From a virus, in the IMG/VR virus record IMGVR_UViG_3300025127_000025, positions 1 to 64,000 of that record: 64,000 bases of DNA; one strand, given 5' to 3'. The translations under genes were made by a program, and so were the position numbers. Within the stretch, counting starts at the first letter, position 1; every line of letters begins with the position of its first letter. Below the pieces are notes generated by a model. The model had not been told where the DNA came from. It did not search any database and worked only from the letters and a program-made list of their open reading frames with translations. Positions 2,367 to 33,200 of the stretch are shown here, piece by piece.

Positions 2367-2435
2367 ATGAAGAAGAAAGACAATAACACAACATATGTGA
2401 AGGACGGGAATGAGAATAGGACGTTTTGGGTATGA
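2367..2435 (+). CDS. Candidate 22-aa micro-protein between TerL and LAGLIDADG gene
   Basis: An open frame of 22 codons starts directly after the terminase stop (TAG-ATG) and its TGA overlaps the ATG of the next gene as ATGA at 2432. The product begins MKKKDNNTTY and is basic and Asn/Thr-rich. The exact fit between two genes and the stop/start overlap typical of this genome are the only support. It may be a translated leader coupling terminase to the next gene rather than a functional protein. Confidence 0.4.
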   Translation: MKKKDNNTTYVKDGNENRTFWV

Positions 2436-3568
2436 GCACATTTTCAGTCAGCGGTGATGGGTGGTTCGAGGATAACCTCGGCGTCAGCGCTACTGAGATT
2501 GTATCAAGGCTGAGAAAGGCAAGAAGACACAACAAGGATGAGAAGCATGACATCGATGCTCTGATTCAGGATGTCAGGATGCTCAAGGCAATGGAAGTCG
2601 AGATGACTCTGAATTCAGTTGACTGGGCCAATGATTACCTCAATGAGATAAGAAACTTCGACCTGTCTGATAAGAGCCTCAAGTCACTCAGAAAGTTCTA
2701 CGACAGCCGTAAAGTGGGTTTGGTCAAAGCATGCCTCATGTGGAGAAACGCAGATGAGACTCTCAAGATGCTGAATGAGCACGAGGAGGTCTGGGGCGAT
2801 GAAGAGCGGAAGACTTGGGTAGATGCGATGAGTATGAAGAAGGACGCTCGCAAGATGTGGAAATCCACACTCTCGCAGATGGACAGACTTACTGGTAAAG
2901 AGCAAGAGACAATTAGTAAATGTGTCAATCTACTCAAAATGAATGGACCCATGAGTGCTAGGGCCCTCTTCGAATCTGATAAGATTGAGAAGATGCCGGG
3001 GTTAACCGCCAACAAACTCTCCAAACTTTTGTCTTTGTATGGAGAGGAGGTTGACATTGTCAGTGGTGCACAAAGGGGCACCTTCGTCAAGATGGACAAA
3101 CATGGACTCGTTCTCAAAGACCCGTATGCTTACGCTGCTGGTTTTCTTGACGCTGATGGTTATATTACTATAACAAAGAGAGGCGAGCCAAGAGCAGGTT
3201 TCATCGCCACTGGTACAAGAGGCAGACTACATTGCGAGGAACTTAGGAAAGTCTTGGATTGTGGTGTTTTACAACTTGACCAGAAAGTGTACAAAGACAG
3301 TCAAAGAAGCCAACACAGATTACAGTTCTACTCCAAGGGGGATATCAAAAAATTGCTTGACAAGATTATGCCTCATCTTCAGATGAAGAAAACTCAGGCA
3401 AAAGCAGTGCTTGCCTTTATTGAAGAACCAGACTCTATGAGGAAGGAAGAACTCAAAAGAGTAGTTAGGTACTCGAACTGGAGCGACGACAAGGCAAAGA
3501 GCCAGACCCTTCTCGCAGAGTGGGGCGTGAGCGCCGACGACGTCGCTAAATGGCAGGAGGGATTGTAA
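2432..3568 (+). CDS. LAGLIDADG-domain protein between terminase and portal
   Basis: A 378-residue protein. I start it at ATG 2432, which overlaps the previous stop; a TTG at 2426 is in frame but less likely. Residues 1-165 are helical and charged and not recognised. Residues ~170-225 resemble a winged helix. Residues ~232-335 form a LAGLIDADG homing-endonuclease-like domain with the helix AAGFLDADGY at 235-244 (acidic D242). A single LAGLIDADG helix usually means a homodimer. The last ~40 residues look like a continuation of the flanking protein. The LAGLIDADG section uses more A/T-ending codons than its flanks, suggesting insertion into an older gene. No splicing motifs are present and the terminase is intact, so it is not acting as an intein or intron ORF. 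Its place suggests a packaging or cutting role, by analogy with HNH genes next to TerL in other phages. Confidence 0.75.
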   Translation: MSTFSVSGDGWFEDNLGVSATEIVSRLRKARRHNKDEKHDIDALIQDVRMLKAMEVEMTLNSVDWANDYLNEIRNFDLSDKSLKSLRKFYDSRKVGLVKACLMWRNADETLKMLNEHEEVWGDEERKTWVDAMSMKKDARKMWKSTLSQMDRLTGKEQETISKCVNLLKMNGPMSARALFESDKIEKMPGLTANKLSKLLSLYGEEVDIVSGAQRGTFVKMDKHGLVLKDPYAYAAGFLDADGYITITKRGEPRAGFIATGTRGRLHCEELRKVLDCGVLQLDQKVYKDSQRSQHRLQFYSKGDIKKLLDKIMPHLQMKKTQAKAVLAFIEEPDSMRKEELKRVVRYSNWSDDKAKSQTLLAEWGVSADDVAKWQEGL

Positions 3569-5355
3569 TGGTTGATGAAGCAGAGAGGGGACCAGTGGGC
3601 CGATTTATAGATGCAATAAGGAATCCATTCAGAATCCGTTCTACCCCTCAACCTCAGATGCCTCTCTATACGACTGGTATACAAGAGCCGGTTTTGGCTC
3701 AAGGGATAACTATACCCGCGCTTTACGCAGTTTCTCATGAGAATCTTATTCTTAGAACTGTTATCTCAAAATTACAACAAGAGATTTTCAGGAGAGGTTA
3801 CTACTGGGAAAAGAAGTTTCAGAAGAAATGTGTCGAATGTGATGAAGAGTTTCAATTCAATGTGGATGTCTGTGATGTCTGTGGTGGCGAGGTGAGGGGT
3901 CCTGACCCCCATCAGACCACTTACGCCAAATGGCTGCTGAAGGGGGAGAATCAGATGGAGCAGAGTTTCCTCCAAGTTATGTTTGAGATAGAGAAGGACC
4001 TCAATGTGGTTGACGATGCTTTCTTGATATTAGTCAAAGATTACTTTATTGACCCAGACACAGGAGAGATACAACACTACAGAATCAAGGAGGTTATTCG
4101 TGGTGACCCTATCTTCATGAGAATCATATCCGACAAGAGGGGAGTCAGGGGTGGTAGATACAAAGTATGCCCAATCCACAGAGACCAAGTTGCTTATCCC
4201 GGTCAAGAGGAGAAGTGCACTATATGCGGCAACCAAATGCAGGACGCACACTATGCTAACATGGCTGGTAGTGGAAAGACCCAGTACTACCTAGAAGGAG
4301 AGGTCATACACATTAGCAAGTATGCACCTAGCAAACTGTATGGAAGGAGCCCAGTCAATACCATGTGGAGGCAGGCAATGACCCTCACAGCGATGGACAA
4401 TTACATGTATACTGCATACCAGAAAAGAAGGACTCCAAAAGGTATCATATCTGTTACCACTGACAACCTAGAGTCGATGAAGTCCTTCTGGAAGGCAGTT
4501 GACGAGAAGATGGAGAGAGACCCGCATTACATACCAAAAGTCGGTATTGAGAGTCAGACCGGTAGAGGAGGAGTAAACTGGGTCAAGTTCATGGATACTC
4601 TTGAAGAGATGCAGTATACTGCTGTAAGAGATGAAATGAGAAACAGGATTGCGGCGTTCTATGGAGTTAGTAGTATTTTCATGATAGACAGCGGCAAGAG
4701 TGGTGGCCTTGGTAATGAGGGCATGCAGATTCTAGTCACAAACAGAGCAGTAGAGTTCGGTCAGAAGGTGTATACAGACATACTATTCCCAAGAATGTTA
4801 CGACAGATGGGTGTTACAGATTGGAAGATTACACTATATCCAAATGAAGAAGAGGATGAGATTACTAGACTCAGAAGAGATGAGATGGAAGTCAATCTCG
4901 CTCAGAGAATGCAGATGCTAGGATACAAACCCGAACTATTAGAGGAAGGAGACAGGGATATCAGGTTCTCCTACAGGAAACTACCACCTGAGGAAGCGAT
5001 GCCACCGGGTATGCCACCGGGTATGCCACCGGGTATGCCACCGGGTATGCCACCCATGGGTGCGATGGGCATGCCACCCGGTCAGGCACCTCCGATGATG
5101 GGGGGACCTATAGGGGCAACCGGTCTGAATAGACAGGTCCCACCTAATATGCTCAGACAAGTGATGCCTCCCTCACAACCCGGAGGAGAGGGAGTTGGCA
5201 TTAGGAGCCCTAGAGGTCCTGCTGCACCTGCACGTAGGTCGACCCCCGGTTCAGGCTCACCAATATCTTCAGTTCAACAACGGGGCGCGCAGCCCTCGCA
5301 ACAGGAGCAAAATAGTCGTGCTTTAATGAATGCGAGACGGTTTCGGGGTGCATAA
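3568..5355 (+). CDS. Portal protein with two zinc-ribbon-like insertions
   Basis: The dodecameric portal through which DNA enters and leaves the capsid. I start it at ATG 3568, seven bases after GGAGG and overlapping the previous TAA (TAATG); an upstream in-frame ATG at 3550 lies inside the previous gene. The 595-residue product has typical portal sequence such as NTMWRQAMTLTAMDNY and a C-terminal crown helix, followed by a low-complexity Pro/Gly/Met tail with four perfect PPGM-type repeats. Unusually, it carries two potential zinc sites: C88, C91, C102, C105 and C201, H204, C217, C220. Both lie in the N-terminal half, probably in the wing. The order terminase, LAGLIDADG protein, portal supports the call. 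Confidence 0.88.
   Translation: MVDEAERGPVGRFIDAIRNPFRIRSTPQPQMPLYTTGIQEPVLAQGITIPALYAVSHENLILRTVISKLQQEIFRRGYYWEKKFQKKCVECDEEFQFNVDVCDVCGGEVRGPDPHQTTYAKWLLKGENQMEQSFLQVMFEIEKDLNVVDDAFLILVKDYFIDPDTGEIQHYRIKEVIRGDPIFMRIISDKRGVRGGRYKVCPIHRDQVAYPGQEEKCTICGNQMQDAHYANMAGSGKTQYYLEGEVIHISKYAPSKLYGRSPVNTMWRQAMTLTAMDNYMYTAYQKRRTPKGIISVTTDNLESMKSFWKAVDEKMERDPHYIPKVGIESQTGRGGVNWVKFMDTLEEMQYTAVRDEMRNRIAAFYGVSSIFMIDSGKSGGLGNEGMQILVTNRAVEFGQKVYTDILFPRMLRQMGVTDWKITLYPNEEEDEITRLRRDEMEVNLAQRMQMLGYKPELLEEGDRDIRFSYRKLPPEEAMPPGMPPGMPPGMPPGMPPMGAMGMPPGQAPPMMGGPIGATGLNRQVPPNMLRQVMPPSQPGGEGVGIRSPRGPAAPARRSTPGSGSPISSVQQRGAQPSQQEQNSRALMNARRFRGA
4999..5055 (+). repeat. 12-bp tandem repeat in portal C-terminus
   Basis: Four perfect copies of ATGCCACCGGGT run from 4999 to 5046, followed by a partial copy ATGCCACCC. 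They encode repeated Met-Pro-Pro-Gly in the flexible portal tail. Unit length is a multiple of three, so copy number can vary without breaking the frame. Confidence 0.95.
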
Positions 5356-6859: not shown

Positions 6860-9800
6860 GTGCGTGAGGATGGTCTAGAAGTTCTTGAAAGGAACAGAAT
6901 AGACCTCCTTAAGTCAATAACACTTGGATATGATTACGAGGAAGAAGCAGGTCATTACCTCCTCTCTGTTGACAACATCATACGTTCAGGTATAGACTAT
7001 GAGGCCACGAACGACGATTTACTCTGTTTAAAGGCTGCCACTGATATCCTAAAACAAAGGCTATCACCAAACGAATTAATTCAGATGCTTGAGGGCGATG
7101 AGCGTAGATTCGCTAGCCTGCCAGAGGTTAGGCAGGCAGAGCAGAGTAGAAGAAAAAAAAGAGAATTTGACCTTGGGGAAAGGAATCTCTCTAGGCTTCT
7201 ATCTCAGTATGTGACCAGTCACCCCTATGCGATACCTGAGGTTGATGAAAGTGGACAAGTAATAGGGATGAAGGACAGAATAACCGGTAATCACGACATT
7301 GGTATGGCGCATGGTGAATGGCCCGGTGCCAGACCTGACGCTGAAGAAAACTATCCTGTTCATCATCCATTTCACGAGGATGTTCACCCTTTAAGAATGA
7401 AGAACGTCGTTACCGGTAGGCCCACCTATGAGTCTATGCTCTTTGAGAAGTACTTTGGCCACGATAGTACACCTTGGTGGAAAGACGACTTTCATGAGAA
7501 AATGGCAGAGGCTCCTGAGAAAGAGGAGATTTTTGCCAATCAAGCCATGAGAGCCGAGGACGCTCACGAGAAGCATCACAGGAAAATAGGCTCTCCGATT
7601 TACGATAGCGTCGATAGACGTGAAGGTGAGAGAGCCTTCTCCTTCTTTGGTGGTCCGAAGTCAAAAGACGCAGATAGCCCGTACGACCACATGGAGACTA
7701 CCCGTATGCTTGACTTTGACAGATGGACAAAAGAGGAGGGTACTGATATGACTGCTCTTGAGGAAAAATTCTCTGGACTATCGGAAGAAAACAAGGAGAG
7801 AGCGATGCAGATGCAGCACTTCAAAGACAGGATGGACAAGATGTCAAGAGGTGGCACTGTCACTACGACTGTCAAACCTACTGAGGGTTTATCCGAGCAA
7901 GAGGCGGCTGACCTCAGGACTCAGAATCCAGAGGCCGCTGAGCCATATAGCATGAAACACAGCCACTCCATGGGTTGGAACACTCTGATGAAAGGCTTGT
8001 ACTTCTTAAAGCCAGAAGACCGAACTAGGATACTCCAACATCTCGATGAACACGGGAGCGATGACCCTGAACGTCAATTAGTCAAGTTGTCCGATGGTAA
8101 GGAGTTCCCTATGACTAGACTCAAGAAGAACCTAGAGATGAACGCTGGGGCTGAGTACCACTGGTTCAGCAGGAATCAAAAGTCAGGACCCGCTAATGTG
8201 CCAAAGACCATAGAATCCGAAGATGATTCAAAATTCAAAGGCACTGAGGGTGGTATGGCAACTGCTCTGAGAGAGGCAAAACTCCACGATAAGTTATTGC
8301 AGTCACTAAACTCAGTGCTCAATAAAAACGCAGAAGACCCTGATGAGATTACACAGTTGAGTGAATTGTTCGCCCATGATGATGTAAACCACGATTATGT
8401 CAAAGCACATTTGGAGACGAGTGATTCTCCAGCAGAGGGATTTCTGTCTCATGCTAACAGGTCAAATCAGGCGCAACTATCCAGAGACGGATTTCTGAGT
8501 CTCGCCGGGTACGACAGTGAACTGAATGAACTAAATGAACATCCGACTATCCCCGGTGAGTTATATGAAGGGCCTCTATTGCCCAAGGATGACGTTGAAA
8601 AAGCACTGAAGCGATATGACGCAAGTGTCTCTCTGGGTATGCAGTCCAAGAATATCAAGAATGCAAAGGGATTCCTAAGGTCGGGCCATGCGCCACCTAG
8701 AGCATCCGACTTACCAGATGGTCATGATGACCATTACATCTTCATGGATGGTAAGAGAAGGGGTTTGAGTCACTTGATGACCAAGTACTTCGGTGATAGG
8801 GGCGGTCTTGGTAAGGACCCAGCAACGTACAACGAGTTCCTCTCTAAGTACCTCACATTCGCAGGCTCTGATAAATCCATTCTCAGTAACGACAACGTCG
8901 GTGCATACGGAGGTCTGCTAATCAGCCCCCTTATGTCTGAGCAATCAACTCCCCTAACACCTGCACAGATATCGACTAGACACGGTGTTTCAAAAAGAAC
9001 TGTCGGTAAACGCGGTAAAAGCAGAAGCGCTCATAACAACTACACGGATGACTTGACGACTTACTTCCCAGAACTCATGGCGAGCCTCCATGATGAGTTA
9101 CCCACTGAGGACACTCATTTTCAAGACAGGAAGTTCAATAGAGAGACTGCGGCAGACTTCCAACAAAGCCACCCCTTTGCTGGTGTAGGTTCCACAAGGG
9201 GCGATGCCTCATTAATGAACAGGGGAGCAGCCGCTCATAGATTGGATTACGCTCTTAACAGGAGCAGAAACAACCCTGCTAATCCCTCAAACACGCTTGT
9301 GAACACTCATGAAGATTTACTTAATAATCCAGATTTAGGACCAAGGCCTGACCGTCATACTGATTATCTTGCGTTAGTTGGTGAAAAGAAAAATATTGAA
9401 GAAACTCAAAAATTTAGGAACATCCTAAGCGAGATGCTGGAAGTAGAGGCCCGTATCAGCCAAATCGAATCTGGTGAGATACCCACAAGGAACAGACAAG
9501 CGGAATTGAGGATTCTCAGGGGTGACATGGAACGACTTAGAGCCGCTCAAGAAAATATAGAGATGAGTCAACTTTCCGGTGGCAGTAGTGGAGGTGCACT
9601 GTTTGATAGAAATGCCAGAGATTTCTCCGAAAAACTGGAGGCTGACTTAATGGCAAAAGCAGCATACGCTAGAACTAAGTTACTACCACAGATACTCAAG
9701 GAGAACCCTGATGCCTTCAACACTGACGACCCTGTCACTGCGATGGCTAACATCATGCGCTTGGCTTATGACGCTAGTCGTGGTTTAATGGTGGACGGTG

Positions 9801-12016
9801 ACCATGACCTCTCTACTATGGGTTATCATGAGAGGGAGGAGACGAGGGACAGTCTGGAGCAGGTGCTGCAAAACAGAGGGCAGGAGTCCCCACACAAGCA
9901 ACTAGCAACCACACTCAGGGACAACGCTGTTGAGTTGAATCCTGACATGAGTGTCGATGAGGCCATGAAACTACTTGAGATGCCAGACAGTGACAACGAT
10001 GCCCATAGGTCCCAAGTTGAGGAGATGCTGGGTAAATTAGTTGGTCCCACTAAAGCCGCCACATTTGGACAGATACTGCGCATGGGTGAAGACATCGCTG
10101 GTCGAGACTTCTCACAGTTCAAGGACATAGACAGACCAATGAGGGAGCATATCGAAGATTTCGAGGAGCATCCGTTTTCCAAAGACTCTGTCCCATTGAA
10201 CAGAGGGCTTCCCGAATATGCAGCGATGAACGTGCTCAGTCAGTTAGGACAATCAGCGCTTAGGTCCAGAGGTGACTTAACGACCTATGGGTTGCAGATG
10301 CATCCTCATCCATTACCCCCTAGAGGTAAAGCAAGTCGAGGCGCTTTGCCCATGTGGGCCTCATCAAAAAGAACGAAAGCATACCACCAAGCGATGTCAA
10401 ATGGCATCTACACATTTGATGAGGGGCAATCCGGTCCTCTGGAAGATGCCAGTGCTGGTGGTGTTACAAAACCAGCCCATGGTAAGATGACCGTGCCAAT
10501 AAGACCAGCATCCAGTCTAGAGGGCAACACAGTGGTCCCGGCTTTTAACTCAGGTATGATGGACCACGGATACCCTATGTCACCGACCATTGGTCATGAG
10601 TTTGACTCACAAGGTAATCCCATTGTTGGTACCAACATGCCGGATGAGCAATTGCTAAACTCAGTCAGCGTGCCTTGGATGCAGGCTCTCTTTCAAAACA
10701 ATCCGGGGTATGTCGATGAACTGCTTACCAGTCCCGGCCTATCACAAATCTCTGCTTTGCAAAACAATCAGATGAGAATAAACCAAAATAGCGGTATGGC
10801 GGCGGTTGATGATTTCTATCAGGTTGGAAAAATGCTGAAGGCAGAACTACCTAAGGAACTGCCACTCATTGACCCGCTTCACAGAATATTTGAGATTGAG
10901 GACATGGAGCAACTACGAGGCTTTACCGGCGAATGGGTCATATCGAAGTATCACGATGGCAAGAGAGTGAAAGTTAAGAGAAAGGGAAAAAGAATAGACA
11001 TCACTGATGAGGATGGCGAGAAAGTTGGTGTCGATGATGAGATGAGAGCATCACTCAGGAAAGTCTGTGAGAGGGACTATGTCATTGATTGCACTATAGT
11101 TGGTGATGATTTGCACATAAACGACATAATGCTGTACGAGGAGACTGATGTAACTGACCTCACCACTAGAGAGCGAGTCAAATTATTGAGAGGACAGTTT
11201 GAAAGTCATGAGCCTGTTCATGTCCCTAGTCCCGAATCCATACGTGTCACTGATGAGGTTGGTTTCGAGGATGCTATCAAGGACCTCGGTGGTGATGGGC
11301 AAAAATTACTCTTGAGAGATGCTAAGTCCACGTACATGAAGGGAGAGGAGAGGCATCCAAAATGGGTCCTATTAGCAAAGGCGGAGGAAGACATACACAT
11401 CCCCTTTGCCATGGAGATTGACAGAGGCCATTTCATCATACACTTACCGGAGGACTTGGTAAAGTATGAGATAGTGAATAACGAGCCAGTAAATCCCATG
11501 GCTGCCATAGGTAGTGTAACCAAGTCAGATTATTCCCTGAAACTCGCTAACAGTCTAGAACCCTATTGGCGACAAGGTTTCAATGAATTGCTGAAAGAGG
11601 AGTTAGACATATCAGATTTAGAAGAAGACAAGGTTGACGAGGGTATGACTGATGAGCGTGCCCGTAGAATAGAAAATCAGAGTAATGGTTTGCTAAAACC
11701 CAAGAAAGACAAGAATATCCTGCTGAAACCAAAAGACACCCTGAAGGCTCTGCTAGTAATGGAGAAAGCATTGGAGGCTTTGGAAAAAGCAGGTAGCGGT
11801 CATTATCCTATGAGTGGTGGCAGAGCATTGGGAATAGACGTCGGTTCTGACATTGCCAGCCCTAGAGGCCCGACCAGTCTAACTTCTGAGCATGCTATCC
11901 CCGATTGGGATATGAAAGAAAGGCCCGAGGAAGACCCAGAAAAGCCGTCCGACTATCCTAAGAAACCTAAGGAAAAGAAGGAAAAGGAAGAGCAGTACGA
12001 CGATTCTGACGTATGA
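6860..12016 (+). CDS. 1718-aa virion-module protein with DNA-ligase-like domain
   Basis: A very large protein between portal and protease. I start it at GTG 6860, preceded by GGTGA at 6851. Residues 1-1330 are mostly charged, helical and not recognised. Residues ~1340-1530 resemble the adenylation domain of ATP-dependent DNA ligases: a motif-I-like stretch WVISKYHDGKR (1359-1369), a motif-III-like stretch YVIDCTIVGDDLHINDIML, a DLTTRERVKLL segment typical of ligases, then LLLRDAKSTYMKGE and WVLLAKAEED resembling motifs IV and V. The canonical KxDG is changed to KxxDG, so the nucleophile lysine (K1363) is shifted by one residue or replaced by tyrosine. This suggests a non-catalytic or altered domain. 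The tail is acidic and Lys/Glu/Pro-rich. The remainder could be an internal or ejected head protein. The domain call is moderately sure, the role is not known. Confidence 0.8.
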   Translation: MREDGLEVLERNRIDLLKSITLGYDYEEEAGHYLLSVDNIIRSGIDYEATNDDLLCLKAATDILKQRLSPNELIQMLEGDERRFASLPEVRQAEQSRRKKREFDLGERNLSRLLSQYVTSHPYAIPEVDESGQVIGMKDRITGNHDIGMAHGEWPGARPDAEENYPVHHPFHEDVHPLRMKNVVTGRPTYESMLFEKYFGHDSTPWWKDDFHEKMAEAPEKEEIFANQAMRAEDAHEKHHRKIGSPIYDSVDRREGERAFSFFGGPKSKDADSPYDHMETTRMLDFDRWTKEEGTDMTALEEKFSGLSEENKERAMQMQHFKDRMDKMSRGGTVTTTVKPTEGLSEQEAADLRTQNPEAAEPYSMKHSHSMGWNTLMKGLYFLKPEDRTRILQHLDEHGSDDPERQLVKLSDGKEFPMTRLKKNLEMNAGAEYHWFSRNQKSGPANVPKTIESEDDSKFKGTEGGMATALREAKLHDKLLQSLNSVLNKNAEDPDEITQLSELFAHDDVNHDYVKAHLETSDSPAEGFLSHANRSNQAQLSRDGFLSLAGYDSELNELNEHPTIPGELYEGPLLPKDDVEKALKRYDASVSLGMQSKNIKNAKGFLRSGHAPPRASDLPDGHDDHYIFMDGKRRGLSHLMTKYFGDRGGLGKDPATYNEFLSKYLTFAGSDKSILSNDNVGAYGGLLISPLMSEQSTPLTPAQISTRHGVSKRTVGKRGKSRSAHNNYTDDLTTYFPELMASLHDELPTEDTHFQDRKFNRETAADFQQSHPFAGVGSTRGDASLMNRGAAAHRLDYALNRSRNNPANPSNTLVNTHEDLLNNPDLGPRPDRHTDYLALVGEKKNIEETQKFRNILSEMLEVEARISQIESGEIPTRNRQAELRILRGDMERLRAAQENIEMSQLSGGSSGGALFDRNARDFSEKLEADLMAKAAYARTKLLPQILKENPDAFNTDDPVTAMANIMRLAYDASRGLMVDGDHDLSTMGYHEREETRDSLEQVLQNRGQESPHKQLATTLRDNAVELNPDMSVDEAMKLLEMPDSDNDAHRSQVEEMLGKLVGPTKAATFGQILRMGEDIAGRDFSQFKDIDRPMREHIEDFEEHPFSKDSVPLNRGLPEYAAMNVLSQLGQSALRSRGDLTTYGLQMHPHPLPPRGKASRGALPMWASSKRTKAYHQAMSNGIYTFDEGQSGPLEDASAGGVTKPAHGKMTVPIRPASSLEGNTVVPAFNSGMMDHGYPMSPTIGHEFDSQGNPIVGTNMPDEQLLNSVSVPWMQALFQNNPGYVDELLTSPGLSQISALQNNQMRINQNSGMAAVDDFYQVGKMLKAELPKELPLIDPLHRIFEIEDMEQLRGFTGEWVISKYHDGKRVKVKRKGKRIDITDEDGEKVGVDDEMRASLRKVCERDYVIDCTIVGDDLHINDIMLYEETDVTDLTTRERVKLLRGQFESHEPVHVPSPESIRVTDEVGFEDAIKDLGGDGQKLLLRDAKSTYMKGEERHPKWVLLAKAEEDIHIPFAMEIDRGHFIIHLPEDLVKYEIVNNEPVNPMAAIGSVTKSDYSLKLANSLEPYWRQGFNELLKEELDISDLEEDKVDEGMTDERARRIENQSNGLLKPKKDKNILLKPKDTLKALLVMEKALEALEKAGSGHYPMSGGRALGIDVGSDIASPRGPTSLTSEHAIPDWDMKERPEEDPEKPSDYPKKPKEKKEKEEQYDDSDV
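10880..11450 (+). other. DNA ligase/nucleotidyltransferase-like domain (degenerate motif I)
   Basis: This segment encodes residues ~1341-1530 of the large protein above. The order of motif-I-like, III-like and IV/V-like blocks and the LTTRERVKLLR helix match the nucleotidyltransferase fold of ATP-dependent DNA ligases. The active-site block reads S1362-K-Y-H-D-G-K-R1369, in which the lysine-to-DG spacing is one residue too long. I saw no OB-fold with the ligase motif VI. Confidence 0.6.
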
Positions 12017-12074: not shown

Positions 12075-13490
12075 GTGGTCCTAAGTGAGCAACTACTCAG
12101 AAGAGATGAGTCGATTTCCCTCCTCAAGGGTGGAAGAGACCTCATTGTCGCTGGTTACGCCAGTGTTGAGTTGGTTGACAAGCAGGGCGATATAATCACA
12201 AGGGGGGCACTGAAGGACGCATTTTCCAAATTCATGGAAGACCCAAAATACAGGAACGTCCAACTAGCGCACTCAAATATACAGGTAGGAGAAGTCATTC
12301 CAAATTACACGGATAGCGAAGGGAGGTTATGGAAAAGCGAAGTCGACGATGTCGGGATGTTTGTTGTAGTACAACTCAGAAGTGACATCGAGAAGGCCAA
12401 GGAAGTCTCAGCGGAAATACGCAAGGGAAGTCTAAGGGGATTCAGCATCGGAGGCCAAGCATTCAAGCGAATGAGGAAATCGGACCCAAAAAGGGGCGAC
12501 TACCAAGAAATCAGTAAACTTGAACTACACGAAATCACTATTTGTGAAAAAGGAATAAACCCAGAAGCAACTTTTAGCATACTGAAAGAAGACAAAGGAG
12601 ACAAAAACATGACAGAAGAAAATGACGACATGATGAAACAGATGAGCGATGTACTCTCTCGTCTAGAAGGTAGGCTCGACTCCATGGAGAAGGGTGCCAT
12701 GCCTGAAGGATTGAAAGAGCACATGGAAAGCAAGAAAGAAGGCAAGAAAGAGGACAAGGACATGGACGAGAAGGGCATGCACAAGGGAGCCGATGACAAG
12801 AAGGACGACAAAGACAAGATGATGTATGGCGATGACGCCAAGAAATCTGACGTTTACTCGGATGTCATTACTTCTGAGTACCTTAACTGGATGGAAGACA
12901 CCCTGAAGAGCGGTGGAGTGGACATCGACGGTGCAAGAGCGCACTTTGATGACCTCAACAAAGCAAACTTGGGTTCCACACCAGAGTCCATTGGAGACGG
13001 TGCTGACTACTTCGGTGGTCAGGTAAAAGGTCGAGCACAGGAAAGTGGCTCTCCCTCAACTGGTGCTGTAGGAAAACTAGGCACTGGTGGTGGCGAGAAA
13101 GAAGTCAAGAAATCCGACTACCTAAACCCAGCGCTTGTTAGTGAGGCAGACGTAGAGGCCGCATACGAGGTCTACAAGGCTGCTGCAATGGAGCAAGAGT
13201 TCCGAGGAACCCTTGAGAGCCAGTTTGCTTCCCGCTTCGCAAGCGAGCGAGAAGAGGAAATCGCAAAAGCCGAGGCCGCAGCATACGATGCACGCGGTCC
13301 TCTAGCAGACCTACAGAAATCAATTGAAGCACTGACCGAGAGAATCGAAGCAGGCGCTGTACCAGTAGTGGGTGAAACCATTCAGAAGTCAGAAGAGCCA
13401 GCAGTCAGCGTACCTTCAACGGATGATTTGGCCAAGATGTCATGGAGTGAAGTCCACAATCTGGCTAACAGGGCATTCAACCCGGAGTAA
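12075..13490 (+). CDS. Prohead maturation protease fused to scaffold
   Basis: A 471-residue fusion. Residues 1-175 match the HK97-type prohead protease family (S78): the block GYASVELVDKQGDII, a conserved His in QLAHSN (H66), the catalytic-serine block LRGFSIGG (S124), and ELHEITICEKGINPEA near the end. Residues ~179-471 are acidic, Lys/Glu-rich and coiled-coil-like, as expected of a scaffold that fills the prohead and is digested before packaging. The C-terminus ends in KMSWSEVHNLANRAF, shared with the small protein at 5765. The start used is GTG 12075; its Shine-Dalgarno is weak and start assignment is uncertain. The major capsid gene follows after 17 bases. Confidence 0.9.
   Translation: MVLSEQLLRRDESISLLKGGRDLIVAGYASVELVDKQGDIITRGALKDAFSKFMEDPKYRNVQLAHSNIQVGEVIPNYTDSEGRLWKSEVDDVGMFVVVQLRSDIEKAKEVSAEIRKGSLRGFSIGGQAFKRMRKSDPKRGDYQEISKLELHEITICEKGINPEATFSILKEDKGDKNMTEENDDMMKQMSDVLSRLEGRLDSMEKGAMPEGLKEHMESKKEGKKEDKDMDEKGMHKGADDKKDDKDKMMYGDDAKKSDVYSDVITSEYLNWMEDTLKSGGVDIDGARAHFDDLNKANLGSTPESIGDGADYFGGQVKGRAQESGSPSTGAVGKLGTGGGEKEVKKSDYLNPALVSEADVEAAYEVYKAAAMEQEFRGTLESQFASRFASEREEEIAKAEAAAYDARGPLADLQKSIEALTERIEAGAVPVVGETIQKSEEPAVSVPSTDDLAKMSWSEVHNLANRAFNPE
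12609..13490 (+). other. Candidate internal in-frame start for free scaffold protein
   Basis: ATG 12609 (codon 179 of the fusion) sits exactly at the protease/scaffold boundary, is preceded by AAAGGAGA about nine bases upstream, and begins MTEENDDMMK. An internal start here would give a ~293-residue scaffold without the protease, as lambda does with C and Nu3. The sequence shows the ATG and the purine-rich site; use is inferred. Confidence 0.45.
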
Positions 13491-13507
13491 ATAAGAGGTG
13501 AAAAAAT

Positions 13508-14647
13508 ATGGCAAGAGATTACGTACGAACAATAACTGATATGGAGCGCTATTACTATGGCGCTGGAAACGCAATGGGTTACTCCTACTCCGGTAGTGAG
13601 TTGCTCAAGGCTGACAGTCCTATGCTGTCCACGACTGCTGGTACATACCAAGCAATCTACGGTCGCAAGGTCTGGTCGCAACTAAACCAAGAGTTCAATG
13701 CTTTCAGCATCCTACCCAAGAGACCTTGGGACAGGAGTGGTTGGAGAGTTATCACAGACAAGCCAAACGCAGGTGTTGTCCACGGTGGTGTTGCAGAGAA
13801 TGCAATACTACCTGACACTGTGAAGCCTACCTTCCAGCACATCGCTGCAAAGCCAAAGACAATCGCACACACGTTCGATATGTCCGAGACGGCTATCTTC
13901 CTAGCAGACAGGGACGACGGATTGGGAGACATCCGAGCAGTCCTCAAGGAAGAGATGGGTAAGCACCACGCAGAGATGGTCAACAAGATGCTCCTAACGG
14001 ACGTCGACACACCAGCAGCAAACAACTTCGAGTCATTAGACCGAGTTACTGCAAGCCACTCAGCAATGGGAGGCGGCACAACCCACGTGAGCGCAGACGC
14101 AGACATGGACCTATACAGCATCGACAGGTCAGCCAACTCATGGTCTGACGCAGAAGTCAACTGTGACAGCGGCGGTACCGACCGAACGCTATCCCTAGAC
14201 CAACTGGACACATTGTTCCAGCAAATCTGGGAGCGTGGTGGAAACCCCAAGGTCATGCTAACTGGATACGACACTCTGATGAGACTACAGCAACTGCTAC
14301 AGTCCCAGCAGAGATTCATGGAGGAGAAGAGAGTTACACCAACCTACAACGGTGTGAAGGGTGTTCCCGGTATGGAAGCCGGATTCATCGTCGCAACCTA
14401 CAACGGTGTACCAATCATCCCAACCAAAGACATGGACGACGACGGAAACCTATCCAAGATTTACTACCTAGACACAGACTACCTCTACTTTAGCACTGCA
14501 ATACCAACGCAGTACTTCGAGAGCGGAATTGAGACTGGTGACCCATTCGCAATCAACAGATTGGGTCAAGAGGGACTATACCGAACCATGGGTGAGATAT
14601 GGACCACTTTCTTCGGCGCACAAGGGAGTATTCGTGACCTAAAGTGA
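13508..14647 (+). CDS. Major capsid protein, HK97 fold
   Basis: A 379-residue protein directly after the protease/scaffold, with a strong site GAGGTGA before ATG 13508. The N-terminal ~40 residues could be a short arm; residues ~50-110 resemble the E-loop and spine-helix region, and the EEMGKHHAEMVNKMLLTDVD helix is typical of HK97-type capsid spine helices. The later region includes VMLTGYDTLMRLQQLL and the P-domain-like strand FIVATYNGVPIIPTKDM, followed by a C-terminal block with a GEIWTTFFG strand, matching the pattern of HK97-family coat proteins. Position, size and pattern agree. Sequence conservation in this family is low, so the fold is recognised from pattern rather than a fixed motif. 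Confidence 0.88.
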   Translation: MARDYVRTITDMERYYYGAGNAMGYSYSGSELLKADSPMLSTTAGTYQAIYGRKVWSQLNQEFNAFSILPKRPWDRSGWRVITDKPNAGVVHGGVAENAILPDTVKPTFQHIAAKPKTIAHTFDMSETAIFLADRDDGLGDIRAVLKEEMGKHHAEMVNKMLLTDVDTPAANNFESLDRVTASHSAMGGGTTHVSADADMDLYSIDRSANSWSDAEVNCDSGGTDRTLSLDQLDTLFQQIWERGGNPKVMLTGYDTLMRLQQLLQSQQRFMEEKRVTPTYNGVKGVPGMEAGFIVATYNGVPIIPTKDMDDDGNLSKIYYLDTDYLYFSTAIPTQYFESGIETGDPFAINRLGQEGLYRTMGEIWTTFFGAQGSIRDLK

Positions 14648-24287: not shown

Positions 24288-27200
24288 GTGACAGTCATTA
24301 CCCGTAAGAACCATGCGATGTTCTTCAACGGTATCACTGACAGCATCGTGGTGCCTGAGGGTGCCTTCTCCACGCTGGGTGAGAAAACAACCCAAGACAC
24401 CTACGATGTCAGGAACATCCTCTCACCTGACGCCCCCCTCTCATATAGGTCACAAGGGGCTACGTCTGGGGCTTTCAACGGGTATATCACAATCGAGGCG
24501 TGGGTCATACCGGACTGCGGTGGTACAATCATCGAGAAGGAGGGGCAGTTCAGGCTATCGCTAGGGAACGTAGACACACCCGGTCCTGCGGTGTTCGTAG
24601 CGCACCTCACAGGAGACCAAGGAGACACAACTGTCACACTGACTACGGCAAACGAAGAGTCTAACAGATACGAGGGAACCGTCTATCCCCACATAGAGTA
24701 TCAAGGAGTGCAGGATTCGTACAACAGATTCGTCAGTGGTAGTGATGACGCTACTGACTTGAACAGAAATCACAGACCACTCATTCACGTGGTAGCAGCA
24801 GTTAGACCATCAGCGGTGGAGTTGTATGTCAATGGGGCCATGGTAGCGTCAAAGTCAACAAAGGACAAGGGACTGACACTCAGGTCATCGTCTCATCGTA
24901 CATTCATCGGTGGTGAGGGTGGTCGTTTCCGTGGCACTATGGAGGGTATACACCTCAGTGCTGCTTTCAGCCCAACCATGGTTGATGGCAATGGTCCCTA
25001 CTTGGATGCTGAGACTCTGCTGTTGTATAGATTTGAAGAGCCAATATCACCAATAGAGGGTGTGTTTACATTCTCCTCGATAGCAAACAACAGCACCACC
25101 ATGGATGGGGTTAGTGTTACAATCTCCCAAATCAGCATGTCCAGCACAGATGCCACAACGTTGGCAAAGAGTCTGACTGGTCTATCCACAGTCTCCGGTA
25201 ACTACGTGTTTTCTAAGGACTCCACCGGTGTGCACAAGTACTCTAGTGGTGACTACAAAGTTCTAGACTATCAGTCCGGCTCTCTATCCACACACGCTAT
25301 CTCCCATACGCCCTACAACCTCCTAATCAACCCGGATGGGATTGACCCTGATACCAAAGCGCCTAACAGCAAACCACCTGAGAGAGTTAGGCTACACAGC
25401 ATAAACGTCGATACAGGCAACCTACTTGTGTCCAGCATACACCTAGACTTCGCCTCTTCAACCAACGGCATGATACCTGCTTTACATACTAGGAGCACTG
25501 GAGTGGACAACCACTTCGTTGTAGTGAGTTCCGACCTTCTCCTAGACTCAGCGACTGGTAATCCCTACCAACCTCCACACTTCACATCTCAGATTATTGA
25601 TAGGACAGGGCAGATGGTGATTGACGAGAGTGAGTTCCAGAATCATGGTTTTGTCTATTCATCCGCCATGGCCACCACATCCTCTGACTCCAACAACCCT
25701 TTTGCAGTCACTTGGCCGACAACGGTCGATGAGGCGTATCAGATAGGCCATAGTGGGAGGCATACCAAGAACCATGTCGAGGGCCATTGCTACCTGAGAA
25801 TGCTACCTAAGTCCTCTGAGGAGATAATAGACCAGAGGGCCGATGGGTCTGCTGATGTCATAGAAATTATCTATGACGAAGTGCAAACGGGCATACACAA
25901 CAGAGTCTCGATGAACAGCGTTGTCGACGTGTATCGTGAGTTCGGTAACATGGAGGTCGTCAACGTAGTTGATTCCAGCACTGTGACTGTGGCATTCAAT
26001 TCATACAACAACACCACTAGCCCGCCCGCTGGTAAAAGAAAACTCATAGCGATTGGCGGTCCTAGTTTTGATTACACACCCTTCGCTTTGAAAGGGCCCA
26101 TACCACCTTTCCAAGTATACGACTCAGACGATGCTCAGACGCACATCAGCGATGACATACGCAAGTATCACGTTAAGCCATCAAAAGAGAGTAGGGTCGC
26201 TATACTACACGTACCGAGGCTTACGCAACTAACACCAACCCTAGCACCCTTTGTTGAGATACACTACAACGCAATCGACCTAACTGGCGCGAGCATGAGT
26301 GGCACAGTGCAACCCTTGCTCATGGTGGAGAAGACGGTTCCGTCCTCCGATACTCTAGTCTCCGGTAGCGAGTATGTCTACGACGCCATCATCAACTCAA
26401 TCGCATCAGGGCATACGCTGTTCGCACCCGGCGGTTATATCGATGTAGATACAGAGGAGATAAACGTAGGCGATGAACTGCTATATGACCACAGCCTCGT
26501 AGGTGATACCTCAGAGGGCTTCTCCTCCGATGACGAGGTCGATGAGTCTCTCACACCAGCCAACTACACACCAAGGAACAACTCAGACTCCATACAGAAC
26601 CAGACTCCCGGTGTCATACTTGAGTCAACCAGCACCACTGGTGACCATGACTCAGTGTTTCACAGGCTGTATTTGAATCAAGTCAAGAACACAAAAATCA
26701 TGGCAGACAAGGGCAGTTACGATAGACTAGAGCCTGATGTGACACCCAACAGCCCTGCTGCTGGTCAGTTTGACACAGGCACTGTGACCTCTGCGACCCC
26801 GATATACGAGATGTACGACGTTATTGACAATTTCACAGTGACTGGCAACAACTCCGCTGACATGCGCATCATACTGCAACCGACCGATAGAAGACGCAGT
26901 ATGCTCCTCTCTAATGTGAATATCAGCGGTGTCCTCAATCGTGTGTCTATACTCTACATGATGAGTCGTGCTAAGGTAAGAAGCATCGATGAGACTGTAG
27001 GCGAGCAAGGCGGTATAGAGGGTATTAGGTGTGTCGGAGTTGCAGACTCCATCGTATCAAGGAGAATAGACTTCACAGGGAAGGGGAGTCCAGATTCTCA
27101 CATTGTCAAGGAGATAGAGCCTAATGCGCCTGTGGTTACGGTGAGTCTAGGTGGTCCGGGTCAAGGTGCCATGGACACCAGACCTGTGTTTCAGAAGAGC

Positions 27201-30200
27201 ATACTCGCTCATGAGTCCTATTCGACTCGCAGGTCTTACTCAGTGACAGCGCACCAACTAGACGTTAACTGGACCAGTGGTGCAGCGACGCTACACGTTA
27301 AGCCCTTGAACAACGAGAGCACTGACCTAGCGTCTTGGGGGACATACGGCTTCCCTCGTTATGGTAGAATACACCTACCTGATGGAAGCAGTGCCAAGTA
27401 CGACAGCAAGACTGGGTCAACGTTTGTCTTCAGCGCAGCCAGCGCGTCTACCTTGGACTTCCTGTCCAGTGATGGCACCTCGCATCTAGCAGTCGGTAAA
27501 CTACTCAACGCTACTGGCTTCATGGTTGGACCGACCAGTGGTACCTCCGTCACCATAAACGGTAACTTCACAGTGTTCAGTGAGGCGGACTTTGGAGATG
27601 AGTCCGACTTGGAAAACGGCACTACCTTGAATGACAGGATGCATCAGTCCCTAAACGATGTGCAACATGATTACCAGTTGGGCACTCAGTATGCAAGCAC
27701 TAGGGCAATAGCGGAGATACCCCTGTTCTCTGAGCAGTTCTTCCACGACTCCATTGGTCCCGGTAACGCTTTCAAGATACACGTTGACGCCACTCATACA
27801 GCGCACACGTACAATCCCAGTCCGGTCGGTAGGAGATTCAAGAGCGAGAATGAACTTGCAGACAGGGAGGCCAAATCAGCCTTCTCAATAGCGTTGCAGA
27901 ACAGGGAATACCTAGACTCAACATTTGCAGTAAAATGGGACGCTGTCAACAAAAGGCTGTATGTGAACAACATAAACATCTTCCCAGACTCAACTACGAG
28001 CACTGCTACCTACAAAGGCGTGACCACCGCGTATCGCTATAGAAAGGTGCATCTCGCCAACGGTGAGTGGTCTTGGTACACCAGTGTCAATACAAGCGAT
28101 GGGTACTTACAGTTGCTTGACGCCACGTATGGGCAGAGCCCGAACTTCTTCGAGTCATTAGCAGTGGGCATCTCCGTCTTCATCAACGATGCAGGCATAG
28201 ACAGTTCTCTGATACCAATCAGTTCCGATGAGTTCACACCGTCCTCCGACTTCGAAAACAGGGACGAATATTATCATGATGCTGCCAGTGTAAAGACACA
28301 GGGTGGAAATGTAGACTACGGTCTGCGTCAATACGTTAGCGCTGTTGAGTTCAAGGCTGGTCCTGAGTCCAACCCACACGCACCTAGAGTGGATGTAAAA
28401 CGTGCCACTGGTAAGGTGTTGACTGCAACTGTCACTAGACTCACAGGTGTGCCAGAGCAGGCTGTCACAATCACCCTCAGTGAGGAGGACTTCGCAAAGT
28501 TCCCTGACTTGGGATACGATACTCTAGCAAATGCTCCCTCCTCCGTTGGGGATTTGGGATACGAGGTGCAATACGATGACAATGGCACGGTGTACAGTTA
28601 CCAGTACCATGGTCACATCAAGACGATAAACAGTGTCGCAACGCCCAAGAACAGCATAACACTGGTCTTTCAAACATCTGGTGCTACATATCCATTAGTC
28701 GATACTGGTGTACTAATCAATAGAACTGCACTTGGTGGTGGCTCCTATGCACAGGGAACAACTGGCGCCATGATTGTAGATGGTGTTGATGCAACTACGA
28801 TATTTACTGTGGGTGATTTACTTTTCCAATCTGATGGTAGTAGTGCTGGAGAGATAACCGCTGTTTCATCAACAGCAGTCACAGTGGGAGGGGGAACCAC
28901 TAATGGGGCATTTCAAGACAATGAGGAATTGAAAGCCGCGCAGGGATTCCCCGAAGGTGTCAAGATAACCCTGACAAGCAAACGCAGAAGCATACTCGGG
29001 ACCTCAGTCACCACAGAGGTATCCGATGGCTCTCAGTATTACCGTGAGTTGAAGAACAGCCTGAACATTACCGATGTCACCGTTACTGCACAAAGCGCGG
29101 ACTCATCATCACCGTTTGAGATAACCGTAGACGGTGCCAGTGGAAAGAACGTCAACGACCTGCACGGCACGAATGTCAAGAAAGACGACGTCCTCTATTA
29201 CTTGGAAGACACTAGCACCGACAAAATACGAAGAATAGGAGTCGTTAGTGAAGTTGAGAGCGCTGATGCAAACGGCACCCAAATCATCAACATGACTGCC
29301 GCGACACCAGTGATACCGTCCAATGCAAAACTAGCAGTATGGATGGGTGACTACGAGGAGAGGGATGCCGTTCTCAATGCAACATGGCTCAACCCTTACT
29401 CAGCCGGTGGATTCCGTGACGGCGACACCGTGTGGGCCAATATGTCATACAACAACCCACACGCTGTCGAGGGGTTGTTTGCCAAGAGCAGAGGAGTCTA
29501 CAATGAGTCACAGGTCTGGAACGCCTTCAATGGCGGTGCTGGTGAGTTGGATACCACTAACCCCAGAGACAGCATACCGCTTGAGAACTTCATGATTGGC
29601 AATACCTGTCTGGAGACAGCCAGAAACTATGTCCAACACGTCAACAGAACGGTCGAGGAGAACTACCTAGCGCTAGGCCTAACAGCATCACAAGCACCCA
29701 CTGTGGCATTCATTGACCCCTATCTATCAAACGATGACCATGCGCGTGTGCTATTGTACGATGTGGCACATGACAAGGAGTTCATCGCATTCCAAGACAT
29801 ACACATGCAGGTACAAACTAGCCCTGATGCCGTTCAGATAGGATGGCCCAAGGAAGTGGTTGAGGACGGCGGTAGCACAAGGAGCAGGCTACACAAGGTC
29901 AATGCAGTCTACAATGGAGCAGGCCCAAGCCCTTGGACCACGCAGATAGACGTCACCAACGGATTCCTGTCACAGAACCCATACATACGAAGCACACAGC
30001 AATCCAAGTTCATAGAGAGCGCATACGCCCACGACCTGTCTAATCGACATACTGAGGACTTGTTGGACTCTACCACATTTGACAATCAGAGTGTCGACTT
30101 CCCAACCGATGGTAGGAGCATAGCAGGCGCTAGGTTGTACGGAAAGTCACACGGACACTACGTCCACACTGGATACTCCTACGGGGGTGCAGTCGATGGA

Positions 30201-33200
30201 CTCAGAAACGGCTACAGCCTGACACCCAGAACAAACGACAGCGTATCACTTCACAAAATTGCTGACCCGCTACATGACTTCACTAGAATACCAGTGGACG
30301 CTGTGGACTCCTACACTGACTCCCTAATAGACCTGAGAAAGGGCACTAGCAACTGCACTTTCAGAGACCCTGCTACTTTCTTCGACACTCCTGATGGCAC
30401 TAGAGTCATACCTGCCTTCCTCTGTCTCAAGGGAATACGCAACACATCACTCGACCTATCCTCCCATGAGGAAACTAGACTACAGCACCTACCACAGTGG
30501 AAGGACATGGGCTTCGTCAGAAGACTGACGATAGACTTGGGTGAGGTGGCGGAGAAAGACGGTGTTGTCAATACTCTCAGTGGTGCAGAAGAAGTAGTCC
30601 GCATGATAAACCAGCATGCTGCTCTAAACGCTAGACTGCTAAGTGGCTCTGCTCACGACCCTGCCCCCTTCTGGCATACAGACAACGGTGACAGGGGTAC
30701 GCACATGGGGTACATCCGTGCTCATATAGGGAGAGAGGTGCAGGACCTAAATGGTGACGTAGGCTTCACTGTCGTCCTACACAGCACCGTACCGGGTGCC
30801 AGTGGTAGAAACTTCTGCGCTTGGCTGGATAACAGCACAGGCCAGACATCGTATCAGCCTCAGTTCCTAGTTGGCCATGGTGGCAGATGGAGAAACTTCT
30901 GGGCCCTTCCAGATGAGAGAGAGGGTGAGAACATGCACCCGGCGCCTATGCCTCTTGATAAGAACGGCAGGCCCTTTGCACCAATAACGACACTACAGCA
31001 GTATGTGACATCCATAGAGAGCGGTGAGGATATCAGGAGCGTTGCTGATTTCGAAGACACATCAGTGATGAGAGCAGTCTCAGATTCGATAAGCGGGAAG
31101 AACCACAACTCAATCAATGTAGAATCTCTTGACATCAAGGGTTCATCTTCATCTCTAGTTAGAGGGCTGAGGACAGGGCCAAGTGCGCTTGCTAGAGTCA
31201 ACTTCGGTGGTCTGGTCGCAAGCGGTGTACCGGGCTTTGCGCCAGATGCGGGTAGTTGGGGTTTTGGCTTTAATGGTGAGAGTAAATTCAACAACAGGTA
31301 CGGCACAACATCGACATCAACTTACTCCTCACATGTGCCCACATCGCAGGTGTCCCAAGACGCAGTCGGCACAGGACAGATATACGGTCTGAGCCTGACT
31401 GACAATTTAGGTAGGCAGAATACTCTGAGGTACATCTACAGAACCATGGGTGAGTCCTTCTCCAATAGCAACACGTCACTGCCTGACACGATAGAGGAGG
31501 AGGTATGCATATTCATAGATGACAGGGACGTGTCACAAGGTGGTTTCACACTTGGTAGTGCCATGAGTGGTTCTGGTGATGCCACTGGTAGAATGAGTTT
31601 CTCAGCCGTGTCCGAGGTCTTAGGTAGTTGGAGAGGGGCAAAATGGAGAGGGGTCGCCGCTCCAAACGCTGCCACTCTAGTCACTGCGGTATTGAGCAGT
31701 GAAACCCTCTCAATCACCTTTGTTGCTCCTTTCGACGCATCCTTCACCGATGACAAATTAGGCTATCTTGGATTTCCAAAGGAAGACGGCATCATACAGA
31801 TTAGCGACTACGATGGTGCCGGTAATGCGAATGTGGGTCTGACGTTGTCATACACCCACAGAAGCGAGACGGTGTTCTATGGCGTCACAGGAGTGTCCTC
31901 ACTCACAAGCACCTCCTATCTCATATCTTCCGTATTGAATCAAACCACATTAGTCACAGATGAGTTGCTCGCTGCTGTAACTGCTGCTGCAATCAACGCA
32001 GGAGATGAAGTTAACACGCTGAACGGGCATACGTTTGACTGCACGAACATGTATGCCTTCGACGGTAAGACCTTCGGAGAGTGGGGCGTAAGTCCCAATG
32101 CAATAAAGATACGAGCATACAATCCAAACAAGAGAGTAAAACCGTTGAACCTATCTTACAACGCATCAATGTTTAGGGACTTGGGTATTCAGGCAGCACA
32201 CTTAGAGTTTGGTGAGGTTGAGAAGGTAACAAGACCCACTGGCACTGCTAGTTATGCATTCGGTACATCACGTGCGGTGACCGACGCTAACATAGATGCA
32301 AGTAGAAACATAGATTGCGGGTATGTTCCATATACAGTTTTGCAAATACGAACAATTGCAAAAGGACCTATGGGAAATACAGCATCACCTAATTTGGTAG
32401 ATTCCAAAAACGTTGTACTGAATACAAATAAATGGTCAAGGGGACTAAAGGGAATGGATTACACCAGATATTCTGGAGACCATATACTACCCTCAATAGA
32501 CAACCCGCATTCCATTTACACCACGGGTTTCTCTACAGTCAGTGCGGTTACTGTCGATGGTGAATTTGCTGAGGGCCACACCGGTGCGATAGCGATAGAT
32601 GGTGGAAACTCAAACGTGTTTACCGTAGGGGACCTGATTGTCGATGCTGCTGATAGGGTGCTAGGACGGGTCACCGCTACTAACACGACATCCAGTTTCT
32701 CAATAGACGAGTTACGTGTTAGTATAGCGGATACGCTAAACATAACAAGGAGAAAAGCAATCGCTGAGACCACCAAGGACTGGCAATCAACAGTGACCCT
32801 TGGTGCCAATATGTTCCAGTTCCTCATACCTGCATGCACCGATACGACAGGTAGCAGAATACCATCGTTCGGTGAGAGGAAGAGAATATACCTGACGGAT
32901 GAGAAGTCGATAGTCGCTGAAAGCAAAGTGGGTACAAACGCTGCTACAGAGTTATCTTGGGATATAGACGATTCTAACAACATGCCTAGAGAGATAACAT
33001 TCGAGGGCAACATACTCAGCACACACTTCGACCCTGAGTTCAACGGCCTTCGTTCTATAGGCAGTGTGTTCTCAGAGCCCATCGTCCACTTCCGTGGTGG
33101 TAAGAGCAGTAGGGACCATAGTGTGCCTCTGTTCTTCGGTGGTGGCTTCAGTGGGGTCGTGCTTGATGTAAACGACGGCACCACGAACGATTATTCGTCA

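Follow-up and report, generated by a model that had tools for sequence, protein, structure and literature searches.

Magroviruses, the viruses of marine Poseidoniales archaea, have a published gene set and layout, and DNA ligase is listed among their replication genes (PMC10160649, PMC10768690). For a group A magrovirus, a read that matches its ligase-protease junction has also been reported, without comment (PMC7318539). A ligase gene located directly after the portal gene is found in the ANMV-1 virus (KP703175), where the encoded 866-aa ‘ATP-dependent DNA ligase’ shares its ligase core with the protein described below and a C-terminal motif with the intact proteins of magroviruses. It differs from the protein described here in keeping the motif I Lys and the motif IV Glu; its motifs III and V are divergent or misaligned, and the virus is a distant one. 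The gene directly preceding this ligase (the ligase locus being L094:3200-5800) is annotated as MutT-like and is a portal (PF06381, E 3e-22), and by eye the N terminus of the 866-aa protein contains a nucleotidyltransferase-like GG..N.R..GDIDVF stretch. To our knowledge, there is no report of a tailed virus whose head genes include a ligase in addition to a distinct replicative ligase. In the literature searched, neither a head-module ligase beside a second ligase nor a head-module protein containing a natural pseudo-ligase is described; the search did not cover the first detailed descriptions of magroviruses and Poseidoniales viruses, and priority cannot be fully judged.

Encapsidation of T4 DNA needs DNA ligase (Zachary & Black 1981, cited in PMC10893049), and catalytically dead Lig4 still supports end joining (PMC9638927, PMC11754673, PMC3694833), so that a head-linked function for a ligase and a holding function for a dead one both have precedents. 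The dead DNA ligase IV mutants studied in NHEJ support joining without catalysis, but they are laboratory mutants of a full ligase and not a naturally fixed viral pseudoenzyme. The m3G-cap-binding domain of snurportin-1 is related to the capping-enzyme/ligase fold but has lost catalysis and acts by binding; unlike the domain described here it serves eukaryotic nuclear import, and the sequence similarity between the two is weak. Head proteins of the MuF/gp7 type are encoded just after the portal and are low-copy, portal-binding and often multidomain. In the related halovirus HVTV-1 (gp115, L092:8539-12480), the portal-protease interval encodes a zeta-toxin and ADP-ribosyltransferase protein as well as a MuF protein.

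The DNA analysed here, referred to as the window, is a 64-kb stretch out of the 67,161-bp record of an uncultured virus. Its head module comprises a terminase gene (885-2366), a portal gene (Phage_portal, 3550..5355, + strand; PF04860, E 1.7e-10), a 1718-aa ORF (6860..12016, +), a Peptidase_S78 prohead protease gene directly 3′ of that ORF (12075..13490, +; PF04586, E 4.2e-9) and, after the protease, an SU10-type major capsid protein (MCP) gene (13508..14647, +; PF17236, E 7.3e-10). A LAGLIDADG-like ORF between terminase and portal (2426-3568) is subthreshold (E 0.003), and beyond the head genes, on their downstream side, about a quarter of the window is taken up by one 5596-aa ORF (24288-41078). 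Genes for a Cpn60 chaperonin, an ERCC4 nuclease, a PD-(D/E)XK nuclease and a family B DNA polymerase (PolB) are found at 53-63.5 kb on the strand opposite the head module. The Magrovirales criterion, namely PolB, ERCC4 nuclease and chaperonin genes opposite to the head-module strand, is fulfilled in the window, and gene set and layout agree with the published magrovirus description (PMC10160649, PMC10768690). The nearest annotated relatives of its MCP belong to the haloarchaeal Druskaviridae (33-35% identity), consistent with the relationship to that family stated by the ICTV.

Residues ~1337-1512 of the 1718-aa protein (10868..11395, +) were annotated as a pseudo-ligase adenylation domain through PF01068 matches in relatives and hhalign comparison to intact ligases. 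The original prediction had placed a ligase-like adenylation domain at residues ~1341-1530; this held, with a slightly shorter extent. As a single sequence the protein matches PF01068 only weakly (E 0.044 for the whole ORF, E 0.00065 for the domain alone) and stays under the curated Pfam cut-off (19.9 vs 26.2 bits), so alignments of relatives were needed. No match was returned by phmmer for the single domain against the PDB, or by tblastn for the 1718-aa protein against annotated phages. Relatives were collected from scans of viral contigs, close ones first and then a broad set, and 28 non-redundant members form the domain alignment (A4). All 28 match PF01068 (best E 2.9e-7), and the top PDB matches of the 28-sequence profile are DNA ligases (E 1.9e-4); the profile search proposed with the original prediction thus came out in favour of a ligase. 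Comparison of the dead-domain profile with the intact-ligase profile by hhalign gives 99.7% probability (E 6.5e-27) over 180 columns, and the family-specific block RIFE.DM..(L/I).G(F/M)(T/S)G is common to dead domains and intact ligases. Homology of residues ~1337-1512 to the adenylation domain of ATP-dependent DNA ligases is shown, far beyond chance. A structure prediction had been proposed as a second check. The AlphaFold model of the 406-aa dead region, built on a 17-sequence alignment that contained no intact ligase, is poor (mean pLDDT 40), and a Foldseek comparison of the model with the PDB places almost exclusively DNA or RNA ligases at the top (best E 5e-3). Such matches to a low-confidence predicted model may back a ligase fold without settling it. 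Outside the ligase domain, no part of the window protein matched proteins of the intact-type viruses or of Druskaviridae, with the exception of a weak extension immediately upstream of the domain that was matched in two loci.

Catalytic motifs were compared in an alignment of 96 dead and 59 intact sequences; several loci are overlapping stretches of one contig, and not all are independent. The intact set carries the motif I Lys in 59/59 sequences and the remaining catalytic residues in 58-59/59. This alignment-based count is used in place of a strict-pattern regex recount over further intact loci, which gave 63/76, with 4/13 failures being cases in which the pattern caught no ORF. The dead set is devoid of the motif I nucleophile Lys (0/96; replaced by Tyr, His, Met, Phe, Gln or Leu), of the motif III Glu (0/96), of the motif IV Glu (0/96) and of the first motif V Lys (0/96), and the second motif V Lys persists in a single member (1/96). 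Loss of these residues is shown. All dead sequences (96/96) retain the KxDGxR Gly and Arg, as well as the Asp of motif III and the Trp that precedes motif V, and have Arg where motif IV would carry its Lys.

Within the window protein, all motifs lying on the + strand, degenerate motif I reads SKYHDGKR (10943..10966), with Gly1367 and Arg1369 kept. Alignment of GEWVISKYHDGKR with GEFLVQEKYDGMR is ungapped and places Tyr1364 at the nucleophile position. Degenerate motif III, YVIDCT (11078..11095), keeps Asp1410 and has Thr1412 in place of Glu, and the motif IIIa-like INDIML (11117..11134) keeps Asp1422 with Phe changed to Asn. The motif IV-like KLLLRDAKSTYM (11303..11338) has lost the Glu and carries Arg1486 in place of Lys, while both active-site lysines of the motif V-like HPKWVLLAK (11354..11380) are replaced, by Leu1504 and Ala1506. 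The prediction that motif I-, III- and IV/V-like blocks occur in order held. It had also described the nucleophile as displaced or lost: loss held, and displacement failed given the ungapped alignment and Tyr1364. A further proposed check concerned conservation of the shifted lysine; Lys1363, the neighbour of Tyr1364, occurs in only 23/96 relatives. It is very likely, as inferred from sequence alone, that the adenylation domain of the window protein is a catalytically dead pseudo-ligase.

The distant relatives of the domain are 838-938-aa proteins with intact ligases. The 862-aa intact ligase of L034 matches PF01068 at E 4.6e-33, and its structure model (pLDDT 75) matches archaeal DNA ligases (E 9e-16). 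This head-module ligase of ~850 aa (L034:9284-11872) has a helical N-terminal domain and a ~300-aa C-terminal domain. A LigD-type phosphoesterase identity for the C-terminal domain of the intact proteins gained no support, no PDB or Pfam match being found. In viral contigs, 543 stretches were counted that encode intact relatives, and the intact family is therefore common. Contigs L115-L119, binned as Maricaulis and Altibacter MAGs, encode a magrovirus-type ligase and hence seem to be of viral origin and wrongly assigned to these bacterial MAGs.

Across the 96 dead and 58 intact loci, no exception to the order portal-ligase-protease was seen where the retrieved DNA included both the portal and the protease gene; in both types of locus, the protease gene lies immediately next to the ORF of the ligase or pseudo-ligase. 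This synteny is shown. The intact ligases of sister magroviruses, such as that of L034, share with the window the slot between portal and S78 protease, the HRIFE/YRIFE..DM block and monophyly with the window domain. They differ in possessing all catalytic motifs, the OB domain and the helical N-terminal and ~300-aa C-terminal domains, and in size (~850 aa vs ~1700-2100 aa in the dead clade proteins). Complete ORFs of dead-domain relatives are typically 1700-2150 aa. The suggestion in the original prediction of a ligase packaged with the DNA fits these sister viruses better, with an intact ligase in the same slot; packaging itself is inferred.

In the phylogenetic tree, all dead domains form one clade (100/100) on a long stem branch, joined to the head-module ligases, which shows a single origin of the dead clade. 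Dead domains and head-module ligases together stand apart from the replicative ligases of the viruses with support of 100/99. A concatenated TerL-portal-protease-MCP tree, with Druskaviridae as outgroup, splits the viruses in the same way, indicating that the ligase change tracks the virus lineage. The OB-fold domain with motif VI is absent from the window's subclade, and the C-terminal tail of the window protein (11396..12013, +) is without an OB fold; at the same junction, L028-type relatives contain an OB-like region (A2 alignment), still located after the dead adenylation domain (L028:10283-11785). The L028-type members are likely a transitional subgroup that retained the OB domain, which was then lost in the window's subclade.

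A second, separate ligase (505-526 aa) is encoded elsewhere in the genome in 17/17 long intact-type records (7/7 and 10/10). Its presence in every long intact-type record examined makes it unlikely that the head-module ligase is the replication ligase. Among long dead-type records (81-115 kb, possibly incomplete), 14/15 have no other ATP-dependent ligase. The sole exception, G020 (the record of L140), encodes a 379-aa ligase frame over the Pfam cut-off at 12920-13522. All 15 encode PolB. Replacement by an NAD-dependent ligase was excluded for the 14 records tested, drawn from both types, in which no such enzyme turned up. In the intact-type records G013, G014, G016 and G017, DNA polymerase B is split in two frames, comparable to the PolB-NTD/CTD labels of the Aoguangviridae profile.

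Close pairs have dN/dS values of 0-0.07 in the ligase domain vs 0.08-0.34 in the rest of the ORF. Column conservation over the 1718 residues is highest in the ligase-like domain and rises to another peak towards the C terminus, and the best-conserved block across the dead clade is RDAKS(T/A)YM.GE..HPKW. Constraint on the domain is shown; a low dN/dS and a conservation peak are not what a decaying relic would display. Because the dead domain is strongly conserved and a working-looking sister version occupies the same slot, the fold of a repair enzyme seems to have been retained for another job, perhaps holding DNA.

It is very likely that the domain is a pseudoenzyme module derived from a ligase encoded in the head module, a statement that covers both the pseudo-ligase and its origin. 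In the proposed mechanism, a head-module ligase became part of a giant 1.7-2.1-kaa protein in the window's lineage, where its catalytic residues were lost: the nucleophile, the glutamates of motifs III and IV and the lysines of motif V. The window's subclade would further have lost the OB domain, leaving an adenylation fold under very strong purifying selection. Beyond homology, loss of catalytic residues, synteny, single origin and constraint, which the sequences establish directly, the account is inferred: the domain may serve for binding, without catalysis, within a head protein that is internal or lies close to the portal. Such a module would most likely grip DNA while the genome is packaged or released, holding either a DNA end or, through the motif I Arg that persists, a phosphate; the catalytic ancestor would have combined DNA gripping with nick sealing. 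In well-studied ligases, the motif I Arg contacts the nick phosphate.

On balance, the explanation modestly favoured is that of a head-associated ligase turned into a non-catalytic module that likely grips DNA, its head role and binding both being inferred. Against it stand the placement in the virion without experiment, the virus being uncultured and without proteomics, DNA binding that is inferred only, and the poor AlphaFold model of the dead domain. Taken separately, a DNA-binding role of the dead domain remains tentative, inferred without binding data and slightly more doubtful than probable. The original suggestion of a structural or DNA-end-binding head part is plausible and not shown.

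The most serious rival is a protein-protein scaffold, in which the dead fold would be only an assembly platform, by which the giant protein might attach, for example, to portal, protease or inner capsid, without nucleic-acid contact. This remains possible. The catalytic pocket is gone; the window's subclade has, in addition, lost the OB half of its DNA clamp, and this absence makes pure protein docking a serious rival. Tight nick binding by ligases depends on the OB domain and on AMP occupancy; since the former is missing and the latter expected to be missing in the window's subclade, a role in protein contact is favoured on this point. The RDAKS(T/A)YM.GE..HPKW block could be a protein contact surface, and the 1718-aa gene abuts the protease gene. 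However, pure scaffolding would have no need of the motif I Gly/Arg or the motif III Asp, which are invariant here and in ligases surround the nucleotide/phosphate pocket.

A second rival is an ejected factor: the giant protein would be packaged and ejected with the genome, then, in the new cell, cap or shield DNA ends or nicks, or compete with the host ligase. The portal-protease interval of related haloviruses holds MuF and zeta-toxin/ART proteins, and packaging and injection are presumed for MuF and further multidomain proteins (PMC5512222). However, no Pfam or PHROG match to MuF (Phage_Mu_F) and no other delivery domain was detected in the 1718-aa protein, and packaging itself is only supposed, so this reading is unlikely. 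Still weaker is a snurportin-1-like ligand module, whose pocket would bind a nucleotide or a modified 5′ end without chemistry. In its favour, the snurportin m3G-cap-binding family is matched by 9/28 members (best E 0.001), and the PDB profile search also returns snurportin chains, ranked under most ligases (E 0.07-0.15). These matches are weak and expected from shared fold ancestry, whereas the ligase family is matched by 28/28, which leaves this possibility very unlikely. An active enzyme using Lys1363, which adjoins the expected position, as nucleophile is all but excluded, for only 23/96 relatives have this residue, and the losses extend to the motif III/IV glutamates and the lysines of motif V. 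Chance resemblance or an unrelated fold, compatible with the subthreshold single-sequence Pfam match and the low-confidence fold model, can likewise be virtually dismissed given the 28/28 matching relatives, the hhalign E of 6.5e-27, the RIFE.DM..(L/I).G(F/M)(T/S)G block and the shared gene slot.

Returning to the head-ligase origin of the module, a bolder reading is that magrovirus-type viruses carry a dedicated head ligase, separate from the replicative one, that would seal or grip the genome at the portal, and that in one abundant marine lineage this ligase would have become naturally fixed, as a DNA-holding element without catalysis, in a giant internal head protein. As a joint claim whose virion role is inferred, it is less likely than not. 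If it is true, no earlier case of a natural pseudo-ligase acting in the virion is known to us. As a caution, ‘DNA ligase’ annotations of magroviruses may include the dead domain or the head-module copy. The two lineages form a natural before-and-after series, with two ligases in 17/17 long intact-type records and a sister lineage that keeps only the dead fold, strongly constrained. This series makes it testable what job the ligase has at the head and which part of that job needs no catalysis.
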